Positions 1-8,760 of a stretch of 8,984 bases of DNA are shown piece after piece. The notes beneath the pieces were generated by a model. That model did no database searches. It was not told the origin of the DNA and saw nothing but the letters and a program-made list of their open reading frames with translations. Each line of letters begins with the position of its first letter. Within the stretch, counting starts at the first letter, position 1. The DNA comes from Anaerolineae bacterium (GTDB lineage: Bacteria > Chloroflexota > Anaerolineae > B4-G1 > SLSP01): positions 1 through 8,984 of the forward strand of contig JAFGSL010000092.1 in assembly GCA_016934645.1 (NCBI GenBank), in the 5' to 3' direction. The position numbers and the translations under genes are program-made.

Positions 1-525
1 CATCCGGGCGGGCAAGACGGTTTCACTGTACGAGTGCGTTTCCCAGCACACCGCGAAGCGCTGTGCCGCCTCAAGGTCGAGATTAGCTATGACGAGGAAG
101 TCCTGTTGTCACCGGCCACCCGTTCCTTGATCCATAGTTACACTACACTGCCATTGGTCGAGTGGCGTTGTTATGCGCTAGAAGAAATCGTGGCTGAGAA
201 GCTGCGCGCATTGCTGCAAAGTCGCGCCCGGCTTCAGGCGCGCGGATGGGGTGCAAGCCGTGTTTGCCGGGACTACTATGATTTGTGGTATGTGCTGAGT
301 TACAGTACGCTGAACTTGACGCTGTTCCCTGATTTGCTGGGCCGCAAGTGCGCATTACGTCAAGTGCATTTTGATACGCCTGCGGATTTCCTGGCCCCAG
401 AGCTACAGGCGATAGCGCAGGCTGAATGGGAACGTCAATTGCGACCTTTTGTCCCATCCGGCCCGTCAGCGGCGCAAGTGTTGACCGAACTCGCTGGTTT
501 ACTGCTGGGTCTGACTTTGAATTGA
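1..525 (+). CDS. AbiEii/AbiGii-family nucleotidyltransferase, 5' part outside the window
   Basis: The frame is open from base 1 to the TGA at 523-525, giving 174 visible residues. The true start lies upstream; the GTG at 34 is internal, because in-frame codons before it (GFTVRVRFP...) continue smoothly into the domain. Two stretches mark the family: ALEEIVAEKLRALLQ at visible residues 59-73 and RDYYDLWYVL at 90-99, the conserved C-terminal Lys/Asp-Tyr-Tyr-Asp-Leu part of the AbiEii/AbiGii nucleotidyltransferase fold. In the family these proteins are toxins of type IV-like toxin-antitoxin or abortive-infection pairs that transfer nucleotides to an RNA target; many members are uncharacterised. 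The N-terminal catalytic GS-x-D region and any AbiEi antitoxin gene would be upstream and are not visible. It converges on the GH2 gene with 13 bases between stops and has no evident link to the sugar locus. Family assignment is fairly sure; toxin activity is inference. Confidence 0.8.
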   Translation, partial: HPGGQDGFTVRVRFPAHREALCRLKVEISYDEEVLLSPATRSLIHSYTTLPLVEWRCYALEEIVAEKLRALLQSRARLQARGWGASRVCRDYYDLWYVLSYSTLNLTLFPDLLGRKCALRQVHFDTPADFLAPELQAIAQAEWERQLRPFVPSGPSAAQVLTELAGLLLGLTLN

Positions 526-538
526 TTGTTATCAGATC

Positions 539-2905
539 TCAGTTCGTCACGTTGATTTTTATCTCGGCAGGCTCCAAGCCTGCACCGGTGGCGCGGACGG
601 TCAGCGTGCCCGCTTCATCCGCGCGGGCCACCGCCAGCGCTTTGCCGTAATAGGTGGTATAGCGGCCGCTGTCGAAACGTTCCTCGGTACGAGGGTTGGC
701 GCTGCCGAAGCCCAATAATTCACCACCCTCCGTGGTTACGGAGAGGCTTCTATCGTCGTTGCTCTCCACAATGTCGTTTTCCCCGACGAGGTCAATGTGG
801 ACGTAAACGAGTTCGCCTGAACGGATGGCCGTGTCCTCCGGATTCAGCGCGATGCGTATCTTGCCCGTCGCGGAAACCAGCTCACTTGCAGAAATCTGAT
901 CGCCGTTTTGATCATATGCTACGGCCTTGACTGAGCCTGGCGCATACTTCGTTTTATACAGGGCCTTGTAGGCTTTGAGCTTCTTTTTGCCCAGCGATTT
1001 GCCGTTGAGGAACAGTTCCACCGCATGAGCATCCGCGTACACTTCAATCTCTGCCTTGTTGCCCTCGCAGTTTTTCCAGGACCAACTGTCCAGCGCGTTT
1101 GTACCTCGCCACAACCCCTTGGTTGGCCGTATGCCAGGGTGATTCACTGGCCGCACCCCAATATAAGGTTTCTCCTCGAAGCCCCAGACCACGGAGGCAT
1201 ACTTGGCCGGAGCGCCAGGATGGCCCAGGAGGTCAATCGCGCCACACTCCGAAGAGAGCCAGGGATAAGGTTTATCCATGATTGGCGACCTATCGTAGGC
1301 CCAGGCGCCGATGCTCGCCTCGCCCAGGTAATCCCAGGAGGCCCACATAAAATCGCCGATGAGGTAGGGGTACTTCTCCACCATGGCCCAGTTCGCGGCG
1401 ATGTCTTGATGGAAGGTCTCGCTGCCTACGACGATCCGGTCGGGGTGTTTTTTGCCCTCCAGTGGATAACGTCCCATGGCGTAGTTGTAGCCGGCGATGT
1501 CCAGAGCATCCAGGCCCGGACTTGTGACTTGATCCGCCGCCTTCAGATTGGGTATTTTGCTCATGATTGGCCCTATGAGTGAGGTCGCCAGATTGAAGAA
1601 CAAGCTGCCGGATACGGCCGGCTTTTTCTTCTTTTCCGGTTGGCCTTCAGAGGAAATAGCTTCCTCTTTGTAGATACCCCGGCCCTTGCTCGCCATGTAA
1701 ATGAGAAACAGGTTGATGCCGGCTGTGACCGCGCGGTTGGGGTCCAGGTCGTGCAGATAGTCCACCATCTCCCTGGTCAGTTGCATTCCCCGTTCCTGAT
1801 ACGGCTCCGACACTTCGTTTCCGATGGAGTACATGATGACAGAGGGATGGTTGAAGTCCTTGTCCACCATTGACTTGATGTCTTCCCGATACCATGCGTT
1901 GAAATCGCCGGCATAGTCGTATTTGTTCTTGTGCATATACCACATATCAGCGAACTCGTCCATAACATACATACCATAGCGATCACAGGCGTCCAGTAGG
2001 GCTTTGCTGGTGGGGTTGTGGGCGCTGCGGATGGCGTTGAATCCCGATCCCTTGAGGATGCGGACACGGCGTTCTTCCGCTTTGTCATAGGCGCAGGCGC
2101 CCAGGATGCCGTTGTCGTGGTGGATGCAGCCGCCACGCAGCAGGGTTTCCTGGCCATTGATGAACAAGCCCTGGTTGGACCATGCCACCTTGCGGATACC
2201 GAAATGCTCGATGACTTCATCCACGACCTGGTCGTTTTCCTTGAGAATCACGCGGCAGCGATACAGGTGCGGCGTCTCCGCCGACCACAGCCGCGCGTTG
2301 GCGATGCTGAATTCCACGGATGCGCCGCTGCCTGTGGCGATCACTTGGTCGTCATCGAGGATCTCCACACTTATCTCACCGCCGTTGGCCGTGGTTTCGA
2401 CCAGGACCTTGGCGGGTGCATAAGACAAGGTGGAAACCTTCACGCCGTCCACTTCGATGTGTGTTTTGTTCCCGACCCACAGATATACCGGGCGATAAAT
2501 GCCGCTGCCCGAATACCAACGGCTGTTCGGCAGTTGCGAATTGTCAGCCACGACGCGGAGAGTGTTTTCCGCGCCGTATTGCAAGAAACGATCTGCCTGG
2601 ACAAAGAAACGGGAATAGCCATAGGGTCGGCCACCGGTTTCCCGCCCGTTCAGATACACCTTGCTGTTCTTGTAGATGCCTTCGAACTCGAAGACAACGT
2701 GCTTATCTTGCCAGTCTTTGGGAACGGCAAAGGTCTTTTCGTAGACATATACGCCGCCGGTGCAAAAACCAATGGCGTTGCCACCTGGGCTTTGCGGATC
2801 GCGCGTTTCATGGATCATCGCGTCGTGGGGCAGAGTGACCGCTTGCCATTGGTCCGCGCCTGCCTTTTGGAACCTCCAGCCATGGTTGAAATCGCTGCGT
2901 TTCAT
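539..2905 (-). CDS. Glycoside hydrolase family 2 enzyme (beta-galactosidase-like), cytoplasmic
   Basis: A 788-residue protein expected to hydrolyse terminal beta-galactosides or related beta-glycosides with retention of configuration. Domain order: GH2 jelly-roll sugar-binding domain (about 1-145, with YSGSGIYRPVYLW at 131-143), immunoglobulin-like domain (about 150-238), TIM barrel (about 242-580), a DUF4982-like segment (about 604-665, WSWKNCEGNKAEIEVYAD) and a C-terminal GH2 C5-type beta domain (about 680-786). RSAHNP at 293-298 and MDEFADMW at 315-322 are typical GH2 barrel motifs. E364 in IGNE fits the acid/base, and E496 in VVGSETF fits the nucleophile. An insertion-like segment (about 402-463) sits between the two catalytic residues. 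There is no signal peptide or membrane segment, so it should act inside the cell on imported sugar. The ATG at 2905 is supported by AAGGAG seven bases upstream. It is transcribed divergently from the transporter-regulator-rhamnosidase genes, which points to shared control. Exact substrate (galactoside, glucuronide or other) is not settled by sequence. Confidence 0.9.
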   Translation of the reverse strand: MKRSDFNHGWRFQKAGADQWQAVTLPHDAMIHETRDPQSPGGNAIGFCTGGVYVYEKTFAVPKDWQDKHVVFEFEGIYKNSKVYLNGRETGGRPYGYSRFFVQADRFLQYGAENTLRVVADNSQLPNSRWYSGSGIYRPVYLWVGNKTHIEVDGVKVSTLSYAPAKVLVETTANGGEISVEILDDDQVIATGSGASVEFSIANARLWSAETPHLYRCRVILKENDQVVDEVIEHFGIRKVAWSNQGLFINGQETLLRGGCIHHDNGILGACAYDKAEERRVRILKGSGFNAIRSAHNPTSKALLDACDRYGMYVMDEFADMWYMHKNKYDYAGDFNAWYREDIKSMVDKDFNHPSVIMYSIGNEVSEPYQERGMQLTREMVDYLHDLDPNRAVTAGINLFLIYMASKGRGIYKEEAISSEGQPEKKKKPAVSGSLFFNLATSLIGPIMSKIPNLKAADQVTSPGLDALDIAGYNYAMGRYPLEGKKHPDRIVVGSETFHQDIAANWAMVEKYPYLIGDFMWASWDYLGEASIGAWAYDRSPIMDKPYPWLSSECGAIDLLGHPGAPAKYASVVWGFEEKPYIGVRPVNHPGIRPTKGLWRGTNALDSWSWKNCEGNKAEIEVYADAHAVELFLNGKSLGKKKLKAYKALYKTKYAPGSVKAVAYDQNGDQISASELVSATGKIRIALNPEDTAIRSGELVYVHIDLVGENDIVESNDDRSLSVTTEGGELLGFGSANPRTEERFDSGRYTTYYGKALAVARADEAGTLTVRATGAGLEPAEIKINVTN

Positions 2906-2912
2906 TGCATCG

Positions 2913-2918
2913 CTCCTT
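2913..2918 (-). promoter_or_regulatory. Ribosome binding site of the GH2 gene
   Basis: On the minus strand this reads AAGGAG, with seven bases before the ATG at 2905-2903. It decides the start: another ATG at 2910-2908 is out of frame. Confidence 0.8.
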
Positions 2919-2942
2919 TTCTGTGGTAAAGCCTTGTGGCGC

Positions 2943-2954
2943 CTGTGTTCACAG
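2943..2954. repeat. Short inverted repeat CTGTG-TT-CACAG, possible operator
   Basis: The arms CTGTG and CACAG are separated by two bases. With the proposed minus-strand promoter at 2964-2992, the site falls just after the expected transcription start of the GH2 gene, a position usual for repressor operators. A related sequence, CTGTGAAAACA, occurs at 3024-3034, matching the minus-strand reading CTGTGAACACAG in its first seven bases. Short and possibly coincidental; no binding protein can be assigned. Confidence 0.3.
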
Positions 2955-2960
2955 TAGAAA

Positions 2961-2992
2961 TGGATATTATCACGATGTTTGGAAAATATCCA
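2961..2992. repeat. 8-bp perfect inverted repeat over the GH2 promoter
   Basis: TGGATATT at 2961-2968 and AATATCCA at 2985-2992 are exact reverse complements separated by 16 bases. The two arms coincide with the proposed -10 and -35 boxes of the minus-strand promoter. The arms face the same side of the helix to within about a quarter turn (24 bp centre to centre), which could suit a dimeric regulator. A role as operator is inference. Confidence 0.4.
2964..2992 (-). promoter_or_regulatory. Candidate sigma-70-type promoter for the GH2 gene
   Basis: On the minus strand, TGGATA (2992-2987, four of six matches to TTGACA) lies 17 bases before TAATAT (2969-2964). The -10 box is preceded by TGA, giving an extended -10 (TGATAATAT). 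Transcription would start near 2957, about 50 bases before the ATG. Spacing is ideal and the location fits; no experimental support. Confidence 0.5.
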
Positions 2993-3081
2993 GCAGATTC
3001 ACGCTTCGAGGCGGTGTTCTTCTCTGTGAAAACAAGGACTTGTATTGGATGAACGGAAAAATGCCAAGAATGTCGGAAATC

Positions 3082-3113
3082 TGATATACTTATATTCTCT
3101 GTATTGGTATACT
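3082..3113 (+). promoter_or_regulatory. Candidate promoter region of the transporter operon with two extended -10 boxes
   Basis: TGATATACT (3082-3090) and TGGTATACT (3105-3113) are near-identical extended -10 sequences (TGnTATACT), 23 bp apart. Neither has a good -35 box: the 17-bp positions hold TGCCAA and TATACT. Weak -35 boxes are common at promoters that depend on an AraC-type activator, and such a regulator is encoded in this operon. The 23-bp direct repetition could also be a pair of regulator half-sites. Transcription would start about 60-90 bases before the ATG at 3179. Confidence 0.45.
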
Positions 3114-3167
3114 GAATTGATAGCAAGTCAGCGCCAGCGGTTTCACGTGTCTATCAGTTGAAACAAT

Positions 3168-3172
3168 GGAGG
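3168..3172 (+). promoter_or_regulatory. Ribosome binding site of the transporter gene
   Basis: GGAGG sits six bases before the ATG at 3179. It lies inside the longer frame that could begin with TTG at 3158, so it argues for 3179 as the real start. Confidence 0.85.
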
Positions 3173-3178
3173 ATTGGT

Positions 3179-4609
3179 ATGGGTAAAACCAAGGCAAAAC
3201 GGGAGTATCCGCTCGATGGAAAGACCACTTTTGGGCTTTCCACGATGCGTTGGACAATCACGGCCGCTATGTCTTTGACAACAACTGCATTTCTGCTGTA
3301 CTTGACCGACTATTCTGGCATCGGAGCGGCAGCGGCAACGGTTGGCACGATCTTGCTGCTCGCCGGGCGGCTGTTCGACGCGTTCGATGATCCCTTACAG
3401 GGCTGGATTATGGATAATGCGCCCCGCACGAAGATCGGCAGATACAAACCCTTTATGTTGGGCGGCGTCGTGGTATGCACTACGGCGCTCATCCTCCTGT
3501 TCAACATTCCGAGGAATGTGAGTCTGGCGGTGAAGATCGTGTGGTTGTCCGTTGCGTATCTACTCTACGAGATCGGCTATTCCTTCCAGCCGGCTGACCC
3601 GATCAAGTATTCTCTTTCGCCCGATCCCAAAATCAGAGAGCGGATTCTGGTGGTCCCGCGGGTGGTCGAGCAAATCGTTGCAGTCCCATTCTCGTTCTTC
3701 CTGACGCTGGCGCTTGCCCTCGGCGGATCGTTGGGGGACGCAGGGAAAGGCATCAGCCTGAGTGTCATTCTGGTCACAGTGCCCATGATGATCATGTCGT
3801 TCGTCGGGACCTTGTTGGTCAGAGAGGGCCATGTGACGCAGCAGAGTGAGAGTGTCGGTTTCAGGGACATCCTGGCTATGCTGAAAATCAACAAACCGCT
3901 CTTGGTCATGGCCATTACGGGTCTCATTGGACTGGCGTTTCCCTTCATCATGGCATCTGCCGTCTACTACATCAAATGGGCGTTCGGACCCGAAAACCTG
4001 GGGACCAATTCTGCCATCTGGGGCGCTGTCATCTTGCTCGGTATCATCACCGGCACGATCATCGCCCCAAAACTCCTCAAGCAGACGATTCCGATGAAGG
4101 GTGTGATCATCTGCAACCTGGCGAACGCCGCGCCGCTTGCAGTGTTGTATGTATTGTCCCTCCTCGGTTTTCGCAACCCTATCGTCTTCTTTGGCTTTAT
4201 GTTCTTAGCGATGACGGCCGCCGGCATGAGCTACATCCCAGGCACTGTCCTGGCAATGGAGGTCATGGATTATTCACTGCATAGGACCGGGAAGGGGATG
4301 CAAGGCATCATTCAAGCCATACGCAACTTTCTCGAAAAAACACAGTCCGCTATGTCCAGCACCGTCACGGGCGCTGTATTGATCGCAGTCGGTTACGTGG
4401 TCAACGACGCCGGAGACTACGTGGGAACCGCTCCCGTCGAATCACTGCTGTCTGGCTTGCTCCTGGTATGTATGCTGATCCCGGCCATCTTGAGTGTACT
4501 GTCTGCGGGAATTTACCACTTTTTCTATCCTCTGAAGGGTGCAGTCCGCGACCAGATGTACGCACACCTCGGAGAGTCTAGGGAACAAAATCTCCCCGAG
4601 CGTGTCTAA
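3179..4609 (+). CDS. GPH-family (MelB-type) sugar:cation symporter
   Basis: A 476-residue inner-membrane protein of the glycoside-pentoside-hexuronide:cation symporter family (MFS_2 fold), expected to import a glycoside or oligosaccharide with Na+ or H+. It shows about twelve hydrophobic segments, close to the usual 450-500 residues. The family signature lies at 64-91: GRLFDAFDDP then GWIMDN, then RTKIGRYKP. D67 and D71 align with the cation-binding aspartates of helix II in MelB (D55 and D59). The second half carries AMEVMDYSLHRTGKGMQG (359-376), equivalent to the DYxxxxTGKRxxG loop of the family. The ATG at 3179 is chosen over an in-frame TTG at 3158 because of GGAGG six bases upstream. It is first gene of a + operon with the regulator-rhamnosidase frame 26 bases downstream and is divergent from the GH2 gene. 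The substrate is inferred from those neighbours: a rhamnose- and probably galactose-containing compound. Confidence 0.9.
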   Translation: MGKTKAKREYPLDGKTTFGLSTMRWTITAAMSLTTTAFLLYLTDYSGIGAAAATVGTILLLAGRLFDAFDDPLQGWIMDNAPRTKIGRYKPFMLGGVVVCTTALILLFNIPRNVSLAVKIVWLSVAYLLYEIGYSFQPADPIKYSLSPDPKIRERILVVPRVVEQIVAVPFSFFLTLALALGGSLGDAGKGISLSVILVTVPMMIMSFVGTLLVREGHVTQQSESVGFRDILAMLKINKPLLVMAITGLIGLAFPFIMASAVYYIKWAFGPENLGTNSAIWGAVILLGIITGTIIAPKLLKQTIPMKGVIICNLANAAPLAVLYVLSLLGFRNPIVFFGFMFLAMTAAGMSYIPGTVLAMEVMDYSLHRTGKGMQGIIQAIRNFLEKTQSAMSSTVTGAVLIAVGYVVNDAGDYVGTAPVESLLSGLLLVCMLIPAILSVLSAGIYHFFYPLKGAVRDQMYAHLGESREQNLPERV

Positions 4610-4635
4610 ATCGTGTGAGGTCTTCATAGTCTATT

Positions 4636-5886
4636 ATGGAATCCGCTGCCAGGTCCTTCTACCGTGTGATCTCGAGCGTCTATCACCTCCAGTTGCGTAT
4701 CCACGACGAAACCGGAGCGCTTCAGGAGATCATCTCGCCGCACGGCGACGGTGAGGCGACCCTGTCTATCGATACCCAAAGCAGCGAACGGCTCTGTAGC
4801 TTGTGCGGTCAGAGCCGGAGACCGCAGGTCATCTCCAACGACCTAAACCAGGTCTGGGCCGGTGTGCCCGTTCTCGAGGGGGATGTTCTCCGGGGCACGA
4901 TCGTGGTTGGCCCTGTCTACACGTCTGAGGTGTCGGAACACCTCGTGGCCGATTACGCGCGCGTTCATCACCTGCCGTTTCAGTCCAGGGCACAGTGGTT
5001 CGCGGCATTCCGGCAGACGCCTATCTACCCCTACGTCGAGTTTGCCCGGCTGGTCGCCATGATCTACCAATTCCTCTATCATCAGGAGATGGATATCTCA
5101 TTGCTGGCTACGGCGAGCTTGCCAGTGGAAATGCTGGTGAACCCTATTGAGCTGCAGACCTACCGGCGCAACCGGGTCTACGACGAGAGTCCGGTTCATG
5201 CCACGTATGCCTTTGAACAGATGATCTGGCAGTGCATCCGGGAAGGGAAACTTGAGAAGCTGAAAAAGCATCTCCAGGGCGGCACCTATGGCAACATTGG
5301 CCCGATGGGCCACAATGATCCCGTCCGGCAGCACAAAAACACGTTCATTGTCTCGGTGACGCTGGCGACGCGCGCCGCCATTGAGGGTGGCCTCAGCCCG
5401 GAGATTGCCTATTCCCTCAGCGATCTGTACATCCAACAGGTCGAAACGATGAAGGATGTGCTGCTGATTATGACATTGAACGAAGCGATGTTATACGATT
5501 TTGCCAATCGCGTGCATCACCAGCAGCACACTCGCCGTTATTCGAAATTGGTCAACGCTTGCTGTGATTTCATCGACGAACATGTTCGGGAGAACTTGAG
5601 AGTTAGCGATGTTGCAGCGTTCACTGGCTACAGCGCGGATTATGTGTCGAGAAAGTTCAAGGAAGAAACCGGTGGTTCGATCGGCAACTATTTCCAGGCG
5701 GCAAAGGTATCCGAGGCTAAGTCGTTGCTCAAATACTCCGAACTGTCGCTGGCCGAAATTAGCGAACTGCTTTCCTTCAGTTCGCAGAGCTTCTTTACTG
5801 GGACATTTAAGCGTGTGACGGGCGTTACCCCAGGGCAATATCGTCAGGATGCCGAACCTGGTACCTGTCATTCTTATGGAGGAAAC
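4636..5886 (+). other. Regulator module: sensor domain plus AraC-type HTH
   Basis: Residues 1-417 of the long frame. The N-terminal part (about 5-150) resembles the ligand-binding region of a clostridial/streptococcal AraC group: SFYRVISSVYHLQLRIHDE at the start, C54-x-x-C57, and VWAGVPVLEG with GTIVVGPVY (73-95), PocR-like in pattern. A helical middle part (about 185-293) has DPVRQHKNTFIV (228-239), TRAAIEGG and LSDLYIQQ, which I recall as conserved between sensor and HTH in this group. The HTH_18 domain runs from about 304 to 405: first helix-turn-helix VSDVAAFTGYSADYVSRKF (323-341), second SLAEISELLSFSSQSFFTGT (371-390), closing FKRVTGVTPGQYR (391-403). It is complete, so the module could work as a stand-alone activator. 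Probable targets are the divergent promoters at 2906-3178; the inducer is presumably rhamnose or a product of the locus (inference). Confidence 0.85.
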
Positions 5887-8760
5887 ATGAAAATAACCCA
5901 TCTCAGGACCAATCGAATTGAAAGTCCTTTGGGATTCACACTCGACCATCTGTCTTTTTCCTGGATGGTCGAGGACGCATCTGACCCAGTGCAGACCGCC
6001 GCGCAGTTCATCCTGGCGAAGGACCCCGAATTCGAGGAAGTGTTCTTTGATAGCGGGCGGGAAGAAGGATTGCGCATCGATAGTTTGGCTTACCGCCCGG
6101 ACATCTGCCTTGCACCGCGCACGCGCTACTATTGGAAAGTGCGTGTTTGGGGCGAGACCGAATACGCCGAGAGTGCCGCAGCCTGGTTCGAAACCGCCAA
6201 GATGGATGAATCCTGGCAGGCGCAGTGGATTACTCCTGATTGGGAGGATAAAGCCATTCATCCCATCCTCTCGAAGTCCTTCACGCTGCCTACTCAAGCG
6301 TTGAATGCCAGAGTTTATATATGTGGACTGGGACTCTACCACCTGGAACTCAACGGCGACAAGGTTGGCAACGAACACCTTACGCCCTACTGCAACGCCT
6401 ACGATCAATGGCTGCAATACCAGACGTTTGACATCACCGGCCAGCTCACCGAGGGAGAAAACCGCCTGGCGGTGATGCTCGGCAATGGCTGGTACAAGGG
6501 ACGCTACTGTGGCGATGGTGGGCACCATAGCAACGTGTACGGCGACCGGTTTGCGCTCATATGTGAGGTGCGCATCACACTCCAGACGGGCGAAGAACTG
6601 GTGCTGGGTAGCGACGAGTCCTGGACGACCACGCGCTCACCCGTTCTCGCAAGTGAGATCTATGATGGCGAAATTTACGATGCACGGCTGGTTGGAGTGG
6701 GCGACACCTGCGGCGTCAAACCAATCGCTATGGATATGAATAAGCTCCAGGCACGCCGGTCGCTGCCGGTGTGCATCAATGAAGAACGCAAACCGGTTGC
6801 TATTCTCCATACCCCGGCCGGTGAGACCGTGCTGGATATGGGCCAAAATATGGTCGGGTGGGTGCGATTCAAAACGCAAGCTCCTGCCGGGACGGAAATT
6901 GACCTACAGTACGGCGAGGTGCTGCAAGGCGGTAACTTCTACCGAGACAACCTGCGTTCTGCCAAGGCCGAATATGCCTATATTGCCGATGGTCGGGAAG
7001 CCATCGTCCAGCCGTATTTCACCTTCTACGGGTTCCGGTATGTCAAAGTGACCGGATGGCCCGGTGAGGTGAATACTGACGACTTCACCGGCTGCGTGGT
7101 CTATTCTAAGATGGACATCATCGGCGATATCCAAACGTCCAACGAGAAGGTAAACCGGTTGTTCCAAAATGCTCTCTGGGGCCAAAAAGGCAACTTCCTG
7201 GATATCCCCACCGATTGCCCGCAGCGCGATGAGCGCCTGGGTTGGACCGGGGACACACAGATGTTCTCGGGCACAGCTTGTTTCAACATGGATTCCGGCG
7301 CGTTCTTTGCCAAATTCAGCTATGATTGTGCTCTCGAACAGGCAAAACGCGGCGGGATGGTGCCGATGGTTGTTCCGGCGGTGGATATGCAAGGTGGCGG
7401 CTCCAGTGCCTGGGGAGATGTGGCGACGATCCTCCCCTGGAACGTGTACGAATTCTACGGGGATAAGGCTATCCTCGAACAACAGTTTGAGAGCATGCGC
7501 AGTTGGGTGGATTTCATCAAGGCCGCGGATGATGCCGCCGGCGGTAAGCGGCTCTGGACATCCGGGTTCCATTTTGGCGATTGGCTCTCACTGGATGGCA
7601 GCGATCCGAACTCACCGATGGGTGGCACACCCGAAGACTTCATTGCCTCGGCCTATTACTATCACTCCACTCGTTTGGTGGCGCGCGCAGCGGCGGTGCT
7701 CGGAAAAACCGACGAGGCAGCCGGCTATGGCGCACTGGCCGAGGAAATCAAAGCCGCCATTCAGCAGGAATTCTTCACGCCAACCGGACGCCTTGCCATC
7801 AACACGCAAACCGGCTTTGTATTGGCCCTGTTTATGGATCTCGCCCCGGAGGAGTTTCGCACGCGCGTGATCCACGATCTGATTTTCCGACTGCGCAAAG
7901 ACAAAGTCCATCTGCGCACCGGATTTGTGGGCACGCCCTATCTCTGCCGGGTGCTCTCCAACCACGGCGCCAACGACCTGGCCTACCGGTTGTTGCTCAA
8001 CGAGGATTACCCCTCCTGGCTGTATGCGGTCAATCTGGGCGCGACCACCATTTGGGAGCGCTGGAACTCCCTCAACCCGGATGGCACGGTCAGTTCTACG
8101 GGAATGAACTCGCTCAACCATTACGCATACGGCTCCATCGTCGAGTGGATGTACCGCGATATGTGTGGCCTGAGTCCCACCTCGGGCGACGATGGCGTCA
8201 CCGGCTTCCGCCGAGCACGCATCGCGCCCAAACCCAATCTCTTACTCCAATGGGCAAAGGCGCGCTATCGTTCGGCTGCGGGGCTTTATGAAAGCGCTTG
8301 GAGAATCGGCGAGCACGGTGAGCTATCCTTCGAGTTCACCATCCCATTTAGCGCTGAGGCTGAGGTAGTGCTCCCAGATGCAGCGTTGGGCGAAATTTCC
8401 ATCAATGGACAAAAATCTGCAAAAGGAACCCCACAGGGCAATGACCTGAACCTACAACTTCCTGCCGGCACTTACCTGATCATCTATCAACCCACCCGAC
8501 CGTACCGGAAAACGTTCAGCACGCATACACCCATCGTGCAGCTAGTGCAGAACGAACAGGCTAAAGCCATCCTGGCGGGTGTTTTTCCTATGATTGCCGC
8601 CTTGGACGATGCTATGTTAGCGGCGATGGGCGAAGCCAGCATGCGCGATATGGCAACCACACCCTATCTGCCTATGACGCCCGAACAACTGGATGACATT
8701 GACCAATTGTTGAAAGAAATCGGAAACTGGGAATGGAATTCCAAGAAAGAAAACTGTTGA
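4636..8760 (+). CDS. AraC-family regulator fused in frame to GH78 alpha-L-rhamnosidase
   Basis: One uninterrupted frame of 1374 codons. Residues 1 to about 290 are a sensor region with a CxxC pair (C54, C57); about 300-405 is an AraC-type double helix-turn-helix; 406-417 is a 12-residue link; 418-1374 is a full-length alpha-L-rhamnosidase. The two halves are normally separate proteins of about 410 and 950 residues. I know of no established family with this architecture, so a lost stop codon or a sequencing error must be considered; a Shine-Dalgarno and ATG remain at 5878-5889, so the enzyme may also be made alone. An in-frame TAG at 4627 makes ATG 4636 the furthest possible start; its Shine-Dalgarno is poor (GAGG at 4617-4620, 15 bases away), perhaps compensated by coupling to the transporter stop 26 bases before. 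If translated through, the enzyme would carry its own DNA-binding module. The two modules are described in separate entries. Confidence 0.8.
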   Translation: MESAARSFYRVISSVYHLQLRIHDETGALQEIISPHGDGEATLSIDTQSSERLCSLCGQSRRPQVISNDLNQVWAGVPVLEGDVLRGTIVVGPVYTSEVSEHLVADYARVHHLPFQSRAQWFAAFRQTPIYPYVEFARLVAMIYQFLYHQEMDISLLATASLPVEMLVNPIELQTYRRNRVYDESPVHATYAFEQMIWQCIREGKLEKLKKHLQGGTYGNIGPMGHNDPVRQHKNTFIVSVTLATRAAIEGGLSPEIAYSLSDLYIQQVETMKDVLLIMTLNEAMLYDFANRVHHQQHTRRYSKLVNACCDFIDEHVRENLRVSDVAAFTGYSADYVSRKFKEETGGSIGNYFQAAKVSEAKSLLKYSELSLAEISELLSFSSQSFFTGTFKRVTGVTPGQYRQDAEPGTCHSYGGNMKITHLRTNRIESPLGFTLDHLSFSWMVEDASDPVQTAAQFILAKDPEFEEVFFDSGREEGLRIDSLAYRPDICLAPRTRYYWKVRVWGETEYAESAAAWFETAKMDESWQAQWITPDWEDKAIHPILSKSFTLPTQALNARVYICGLGLYHLELNGDKVGNEHLTPYCNAYDQWLQYQTFDITGQLTEGENRLAVMLGNGWYKGRYCGDGGHHSNVYGDRFALICEVRITLQTGEELVLGSDESWTTTRSPVLASEIYDGEIYDARLVGVGDTCGVKPIAMDMNKLQARRSLPVCINEERKPVAILHTPAGETVLDMGQNMVGWVRFKTQAPAGTEIDLQYGEVLQGGNFYRDNLRSAKAEYAYIADGREAIVQPYFTFYGFRYVKVTGWPGEVNTDDFTGCVVYSKMDIIGDIQTSNEKVNRLFQNALWGQKGNFLDIPTDCPQRDERLGWTGDTQMFSGTACFNMDSGAFFAKFSYDCALEQAKRGGMVPMVVPAVDMQGGGSSAWGDVATILPWNVYEFYGDKAILEQQFESMRSWVDFIKAADDAAGGKRLWTSGFHFGDWLSLDGSDPNSPMGGTPEDFIASAYYYHSTRLVARAAAVLGKTDEAAGYGALAEEIKAAIQQEFFTPTGRLAINTQTGFVLALFMDLAPEEFRTRVIHDLIFRLRKDKVHLRTGFVGTPYLCRVLSNHGANDLAYRLLLNEDYPSWLYAVNLGATTIWERWNSLNPDGTVSSTGMNSLNHYAYGSIVEWMYRDMCGLSPTSGDDGVTGFRRARIAPKPNLLLQWAKARYRSAAGLYESAWRIGEHGELSFEFTIPFSAEAEVVLPDAALGEISINGQKSAKGTPQGNDLNLQLPAGTYLIIYQPTRPYRKTFSTHTPIVQLVQNEQAKAILAGVFPMIAALDDAMLAAMGEASMRDMATTPYLPMTPEQLDDIDQLLKEIGNWEWNSKKENC
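5878..5889 (+). promoter_or_regulatory. Internal ribosome binding site and ATG at the regulator-rhamnosidase junction
   Basis: GGAGG (5878-5882), four bases, then ATG (5887-5889), in frame 1 like the whole fusion. The ATG begins MKITHLRTNRIE, the usual start of this kind of GH78 protein, so this is very likely the original start of a separate rhamnosidase gene. Changing T5877 to A would turn the preceding TAT codon into TAA and extend the site to TAAGGAGG. Confidence 0.75.
5887..8760 (+). other. Enzyme module: GH78 alpha-L-rhamnosidase, 957 residues
   Basis: Residues 418-1374 of the long frame, expected to release terminal alpha-L-rhamnose by an inverting mechanism. Domains (fusion numbering): fibronectin-III-like N domain (418 to about 520), rhamnosidase N beta domain (about 528-700, with NGDKVGNEHLTPYCNAYD and LGNGWYKGRY), concanavalin-like domain (about 715-820, GETVLDMGQNMVGWVRF), the (alpha/alpha)6 catalytic barrel (about 825-1177) and the C-terminal beta domain (about 1178-1285). 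The catalytic motif DCPQRDERLGWTGD is at 860-873, with E866 the likely general acid and D860 and D873 substrate-binding. E1141 in GATTIWERW fits the general base. A helical tail follows (about 1297-1366). No signal peptide is visible at either start, so it is cytoplasmic, matching the importer. Length without the regulator (957) is normal for GH78. Family call is very sure; the natural glycoside is unknown. Confidence 0.93.

Follow-up and report, generated by a model that had tools for sequence, protein, structure and literature searches.

The window, by which we mean the whole stretch of 8,984 nucleotides of DNA that was analysed, contains a sugar symporter gene, a divergent glycoside hydrolase family 2 gene, a truncated toxin-antitoxin gene and, 26 nt after the stop codon of the symporter and on the same strand, one long open reading frame in which an AraC-type regulator is followed by a GH78 alpha-L-rhamnosidase (Table 1). 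The symporter likely starts at ATG 3179, which follows a GGAGG, the mechanical open reading frame beginning at TTG 3158. As judged from domain content, the combination of symporter, regulator and GH78 enzyme with a divergent GH2 gene fits a locus for rhamnoside use. A search for operators in 2905-3179 gave only two short imperfect inverted repeats; these repeats, of 11 nt each, lie at 2944-3034, in the region that separates the symporter from the divergent GH2 gene, and could be an operator. Within 2800-6000, no terminator was found (2.9 expected by chance) and four promoter-like sites were counted against 2.8 expected.

Table 1. Features of the window, with coordinates counted from its first nucleotide.
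Feature	Coordinates	Strand	Remarks
AbiEii-type nucleotidyltransferase, 3' part (type IV toxin-antitoxin, PF08843)	1-525		Cut by the start of the window
Glycoside hydrolase family 2 protein	539-2905	-	Pfam; divergent from the symporter
MFS_2 / GPH-type sugar symporter	3179-4609	+	Pfam; directly upstream of the fused frame
Fused frame, AraC-type regulator and GH78	4636-8760	+	1374 aa; computed mass 154 kDa
Regulator part, residues 1-404	4636-5847	+	PocR-like sensor region, all-helical middle, AraC HTH at 327-404
Linker QDAEPGTCHSYGGN, residues 404-417	5845-5886	+	From sequence and comparison of tail lengths
GGAGG, Shine-Dalgarno-like	5878-5882	+	4 nt ahead of ATG 5887
GH78 alpha-L-rhamnosidase part, residues 418-1374	5887-8760	+	107 kDa if begun at ATG 5887

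The sequence-only reading of this DNA had placed a complete regulator and a complete GH78 enzyme in one open frame, and this is borne out: the frame runs without a stop over 1374 codons and, in the same protein, Pfam assigns residues 327-404 to HTH_18 and places five GH78-related domains between residues 420 and 1255, the immunoglobulin-like Rha78A N-terminal domain beginning at residue 420. The junction had been estimated at about 12 residues; it is indeed short, and its length is 14 residues, QDAEPGTCHSYGGN, which separate R403, the last residue of the regulator's PGQYR motif, from M418 (nt 5887), the usual first methionine of the stand-alone enzyme. The other two plus-strand frames carry stops on either side in the junction stretch, and hidden RNA structure at the junction did not rise above chance (z 0.49).

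In the enzyme part, PF17389 scores 404.8 bits and PF08531, PF05592, PF17390 and PF25788 are also above their cut-offs, the (alpha/alpha)6 catalytic domain and the flanking domains of GH78 both being present. At the positions aligned with E866 and E1141, the solved rhamnosidase 3w5m has the glutamates E636 and E895, which we take to be the catalytic acid and base; E866 and E1141 hence presumably have the same roles. In the regulator part, the AraC DNA-binding domain is matched by HTH_18 at 65.3 bits (cut-off 33.6) and also by HTH_AraC, whereas the PocR domain PF10114 matches residues 71-146 at 19.6 bits, under the Pfam gathering score of 23.9; PF10114 matches 28 of the 40 members of the regulator-family alignment at E <= 1e-3. 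A structure model has high confidence over most of residues 1-408 and matches solved AraC-type DNA-binding domains such as 6swi and 3w6v, GAF domains appearing among its matches only at E ~0.07 or worse; the low confidence of the model from residue 409 says little about the linker, because the alignment behind it held no GH78 rows.

A search with the whole chain, in which scoring was confined to the 7992 candidates with the most words in common with it, returned 63 proteins, the best of them a second fused sequence, P0001, of 1364 aa, which shares 93% identity with the query across 99% of the query's length. P0001 represents a cluster of six sequences on six contigs from two sources, one of which sequences may be the protein of the window itself; all comparisons given here are with this cluster representative and at the protein level. 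The two proteins align with zero internal gaps and have linkers of equal length, the junction of P0001 reading GQYRQGAEPNPLHSYGGNMKITH. Identities are 272/300 in the sensor region, 92/104 in the HTH region and 902/947 in the enzyme; within the linker they fall to 3/7 over residues 405-411, the fastest-changing piece, and are 6/6 over residues 412-417, the nucleotide divergence of the linker being at least 6 bases. At the other end of the enzyme, the window's GH78 part continues (8728-8760) for 10 residues where P0001 has already stopped (1374 vs 1364 aa); within the fused pair the enzyme's own stop has therefore moved as well.

P0001 bears directly on whether an error of sequencing or assembly has erased a stop codon or a frame shift between two ordinary genes. 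Such an error would agree with the nearest non-fused relatives, which have two proteins, but P0001, at 93% identity, shares the frame, the linker length and the open junction, and its cluster draws on several contigs and both sources. A local assembly error is unlikely because P0001, being 7% different, cannot stem from the same reads; we therefore consider an artefact very improbable, and the fusion is probably real. It had been argued from the sequence that two separate proteins in all close relatives, together with low coverage here, would speak against the fusion: separate proteins are what the more distant relatives have, whereas P0001 is fused.

Next to these two sequences, the fused arrangement is rare. 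HTH_18 and GH78 occurred together in no whole-chain hit besides P0001, and a search with residues 1-415, run on 7794 candidates whose length was suitable, gave eight hits, namely P0001, P0056 (GH43 and HTH) and six others without a listed glycosidase domain. The database search for HTH_18 with GH78 that the sequence-only reading had proposed thus finds the same junction in P0001 only, and a fused layout common to several diverged lineages was not found among the 63 and 8 hits, which yielded it in the window and the P0001 cluster alone. A fused frame was absent from all of the best 80 of 591 GH78 loci (blastp E <= 1e-8, stop-to-stop frames of at least 80 aa). Two loci have GH78 genes broken by a single stop into two same-frame pieces (L045 7833-10712 and L062 7914-10742). 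Of 154 genomes from one order, with no more than four candidates scored in each, 49 had a match at E <= 1e-100; no match listed was fused, none of them beginning before query residue 406 or lying in an open frame longer than 996 aa. A pattern scan and a protein scan revealed no fused relatives in viruses, and none of the 213 matching plasmid records spanned 80% of the query. Close regulators were found at E <= 1e-40 in 1 of 396 genomes of the class of G010 and in 4 of 400 genomes of its order (both draws include G010), with a best identity of 41%. The two best G010 regulator relatives (L081 1-2727 and L091 1483-3942) adjoin a protein whose start resembles, by eye, that of the window symporter.

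The closest stand-alone regulator is P0067 (408 aa, 72% identical), and a stand-alone GH78 protein, P0002 (947 aa), is 87% identical to the enzyme part. Both are listed from source lgn on contigs of 10,128 bases, and on this sole ground they are probably two neighbouring genes of one contig. The regulator half is 46-71% identical to 39 aligned PocR-like relatives, and several of the named regulator hits are from Anaerolineaceae. For GH78, the highest identities among named genome loci (65-70%) are with Chloroflexi and Anaerolineae, the loci of Bacillus, Paenibacillus and Clostridia being mostly below 60%. From these identities and the regulator hits, a host belonging to Chloroflexota is likely. 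We built trees for GH78 (20 rows) and for the regulator (35 rows), and in both the fused pair forms a single clade (100/100) within unfused sequences. P0067 stands next to the pair in the regulator tree (99/97); in the GH78 tree P0003, and not P0002, joins it first (95/95), P0002 being nearer by path length (0.17 vs 0.29). As the fused pair is nested within unfused sequences, the parsimonious reading is that a single fusion event joined two genes; on the sequences compared, the fusion would be a derived state, and it is both shallow and rare.

Decay of the regulator was considered and rejected: among columns that are nearly invariant in 39 stand-alone relatives, the window regulator deviates at one and P0001 at none, the references themselves deviating at 0 to 11. 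With the two glutamates aligned to 3w5m kept in the enzyme, both halves look intact by sequence, in agreement with the original impression that neither had decayed. The stem of the fused pair in the regulator tree is longer than that of P0067 (0.30 vs 0.15), which hints at faster change and not at decay.

We then compared the linker with the C-terminal tails of stand-alone regulators. From 120 listed regulators, 6 were dropped for length and 30 for lacking the motif P-x-Q-[YF]-R; in the 84 that were used, the tail past the motif measured 3-8 residues in 68 and at most 13 in 81, the longest having 23. P0067 has five residues past the motif, QNGEA, where the window has QDAEP. From about residue 409 the linker looks spacer-like because most stand-alone regulators have ended by that point, and this piece is probably a former intergenic spacer now read as protein. 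The six residues that are identical in P0001 overlie the GGAGG site (reading HSYGGN) and, so far as the protein of P0001 can tell, their conservation fits a ribosome-binding site that has been kept, rather than a peptide. When linkers were simulated with 6 random substitutions, 76% stayed free of stops; the persistence of the open linker is therefore weak evidence of selection, and a claim of selection for an open linker was abandoned on this figure.

Inside the fused frame, the stretch ahead of ATG 5887 pairs with the anti-Shine-Dalgarno sequence at a duplex energy of -9.3 kcal/mol (scored from -18 to -3), equal to that of the symporter start at 3179, and this ATG ranks 4th of the 167 on the plus strand. 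It is also 4th among the 96 in-frame ATG, GTG and TTG codons of the fused frame, three of which score slightly better, and GGAGG precedes another ATG at 4258, within the symporter gene, so that the GGAGG and ATG at 5887 are suggestive only. A spacing of 4 nt between GGAGG and ATG is rather short. The regulator start at 4636 scores -3.2 and has GAGGT 14 nt ahead; its weakness is partly a matter of the scored interval, which cuts this GAGGT. Start energies in unfused GH78 loci range from +3.5 to -10.5 (19 of the 80 loci, in a few of which the start was placed according to the match and is displaced by at least one codon). Since the ribosome-binding site and start codon of the enzyme persist inside the frame, the likeliest outcome of translation would be two proteins, a scarce 154-kDa regulator-enzyme begun at 4636 and a free 107-kDa enzyme begun at 5887.

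The explanation that we favour, and regard as reasonably probable, is a young fusion of neighbouring genes that yields two products and whose long chain regulates through its own sensor. In a locus for rhamnoside use, made up of the symporter, a PocR-like AraC regulator and GH78, with the divergent GH2, two adjacent genes would have been joined recently by loss of the stop codon and of the frame break between regulator and enzyme, and the old spacer would now be translated as the 14-residue linker. The 154-kDa chain, at low abundance, would bind DNA and sense its ligand through the N-terminal sensor, putting the locus under sugar control, with the rhamnosidase carried behind the HTH; the bulk of the enzyme would be the more abundant free 107-kDa rhamnosidase from ATG 5887. 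A neutral fusion, in which the long chain is cut or mostly unused and the regulator and the free enzyme act as they do in unfused relatives, seems to us rather unlikely, though it agrees with a rare and shallow fusion, with a linker that would be open by chance at the divergence between the window and P0001, and with the retained internal start. Against it, a 107-kDa tail behind a DNA-binding domain would normally carry a cost, and the regulator is without decay. This neutral reading is near the best reading and differs from it only in whether the long chain matters.

The sequence-only reading had gone further, in suggesting that DNA binding could be influenced in cis by catalysis or by occupancy with substrate. 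This is possible and goes unsupported by the sequence, because the protein has kept its own PocR-like sensor, the linker is its fastest-changing piece and the enzyme keeps a ribosome-binding site from which it would be made separately. As a cis-acting trigger enzyme, the rhamnosidase would alter DNA binding by the HTH when it binds or converts its substrate, or through rhamnose freed beside the sensor; the intactness of both halves, the existence elsewhere of a chain with GH43 and HTH_18 (P0056) and the fact that two lineages at least 6 nt apart in the linker keep the fusion, without a stop or an indel, could all be cited for it. The last point loses most of its force, as the simulated linkers show that persistence argues little for selection; moreover, the linker changes fast, the sensor of the regulator is intact, the free enzyme that is probably also made would dilute any effect in cis, and the fusion is confined to a single shallow clade. 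We consider this trigger enzyme improbable. We give just as little credence to a glycosidase-coupled transcription factor, in which a rhamnosidase tethered to the HTH would report substrate or set inducer free at the promoter; the internal start would add free enzyme, so that one frame would set the doses of both sensor-enzyme and bulk enzyme.

On the favoured reading of a young fusion with two products, the locus appears to hold a merger of regulator and enzyme caught midway, with the downstream ribosome-binding site still in frame. If catalysis did feed into DNA binding, the protein would represent a novel type of sugar sensor; if it does not, an AraC-type HTH would be shown to tolerate a 107-kDa C-terminal tail.

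It had also been stated that no family with this layout is described. For GH78 this stands, since no AraC-GH78 fusion was found described in the open-licence literature; an AraC-type HTH joined to an enzyme, by contrast, is not new in kind, as Ada and P0056 illustrate. In Ada, the adaptive-response regulator of E. coli, an AraC-type HTH is followed by a catalytic domain in one chain, the N-terminal part senses by methyl transfer and the enzyme is a DNA methyltransferase. The likeness to the fused frame lies in an AraC-type HTH followed by an enzyme, and we claim no sequence relation past the HTH; the fused frame has a glycosidase and a PocR-like sensor instead. Trigger enzymes such as PutA and BirA also combine an enzyme with transcription control in one protein and their catalytic site itself senses, whereas the fused protein appears to retain a separate sensor.

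The regulator half is a normal member of a group of AraC regulators with a PocR-like sensor from Anaerolineae-type bacteria (P0067-P0105). A source names some of these 'YSIRK-targeted surface antigen transcriptional regulator', and those listed are, unlike the fused frame, stand-alone proteins of 404-422 aa. The enzyme half has the same domains and aligned glutamates as stand-alone GH78 proteins (P0002-P0041 and the solved 3w5m, 6gsz and 6i60), which are without a regulator. A survey of AraC/XylS proteins reports 106 different companion domains (PMC5882156), in keeping with such joinings being not new in kind. Like the fused frame, P0056 (809 aa, cluster of 8) unites a glycosidase and an AraC-type HTH in one polypeptide, and its C-terminal half shares 37% identity with the window regulator across 52% of residues 1-415; it differs in having the enzyme first, an N-terminal GH43 (4-314 and 344-541), and the HTH last (723-801), in the enzyme family, and in that no PocR-like sensor is reported for it.
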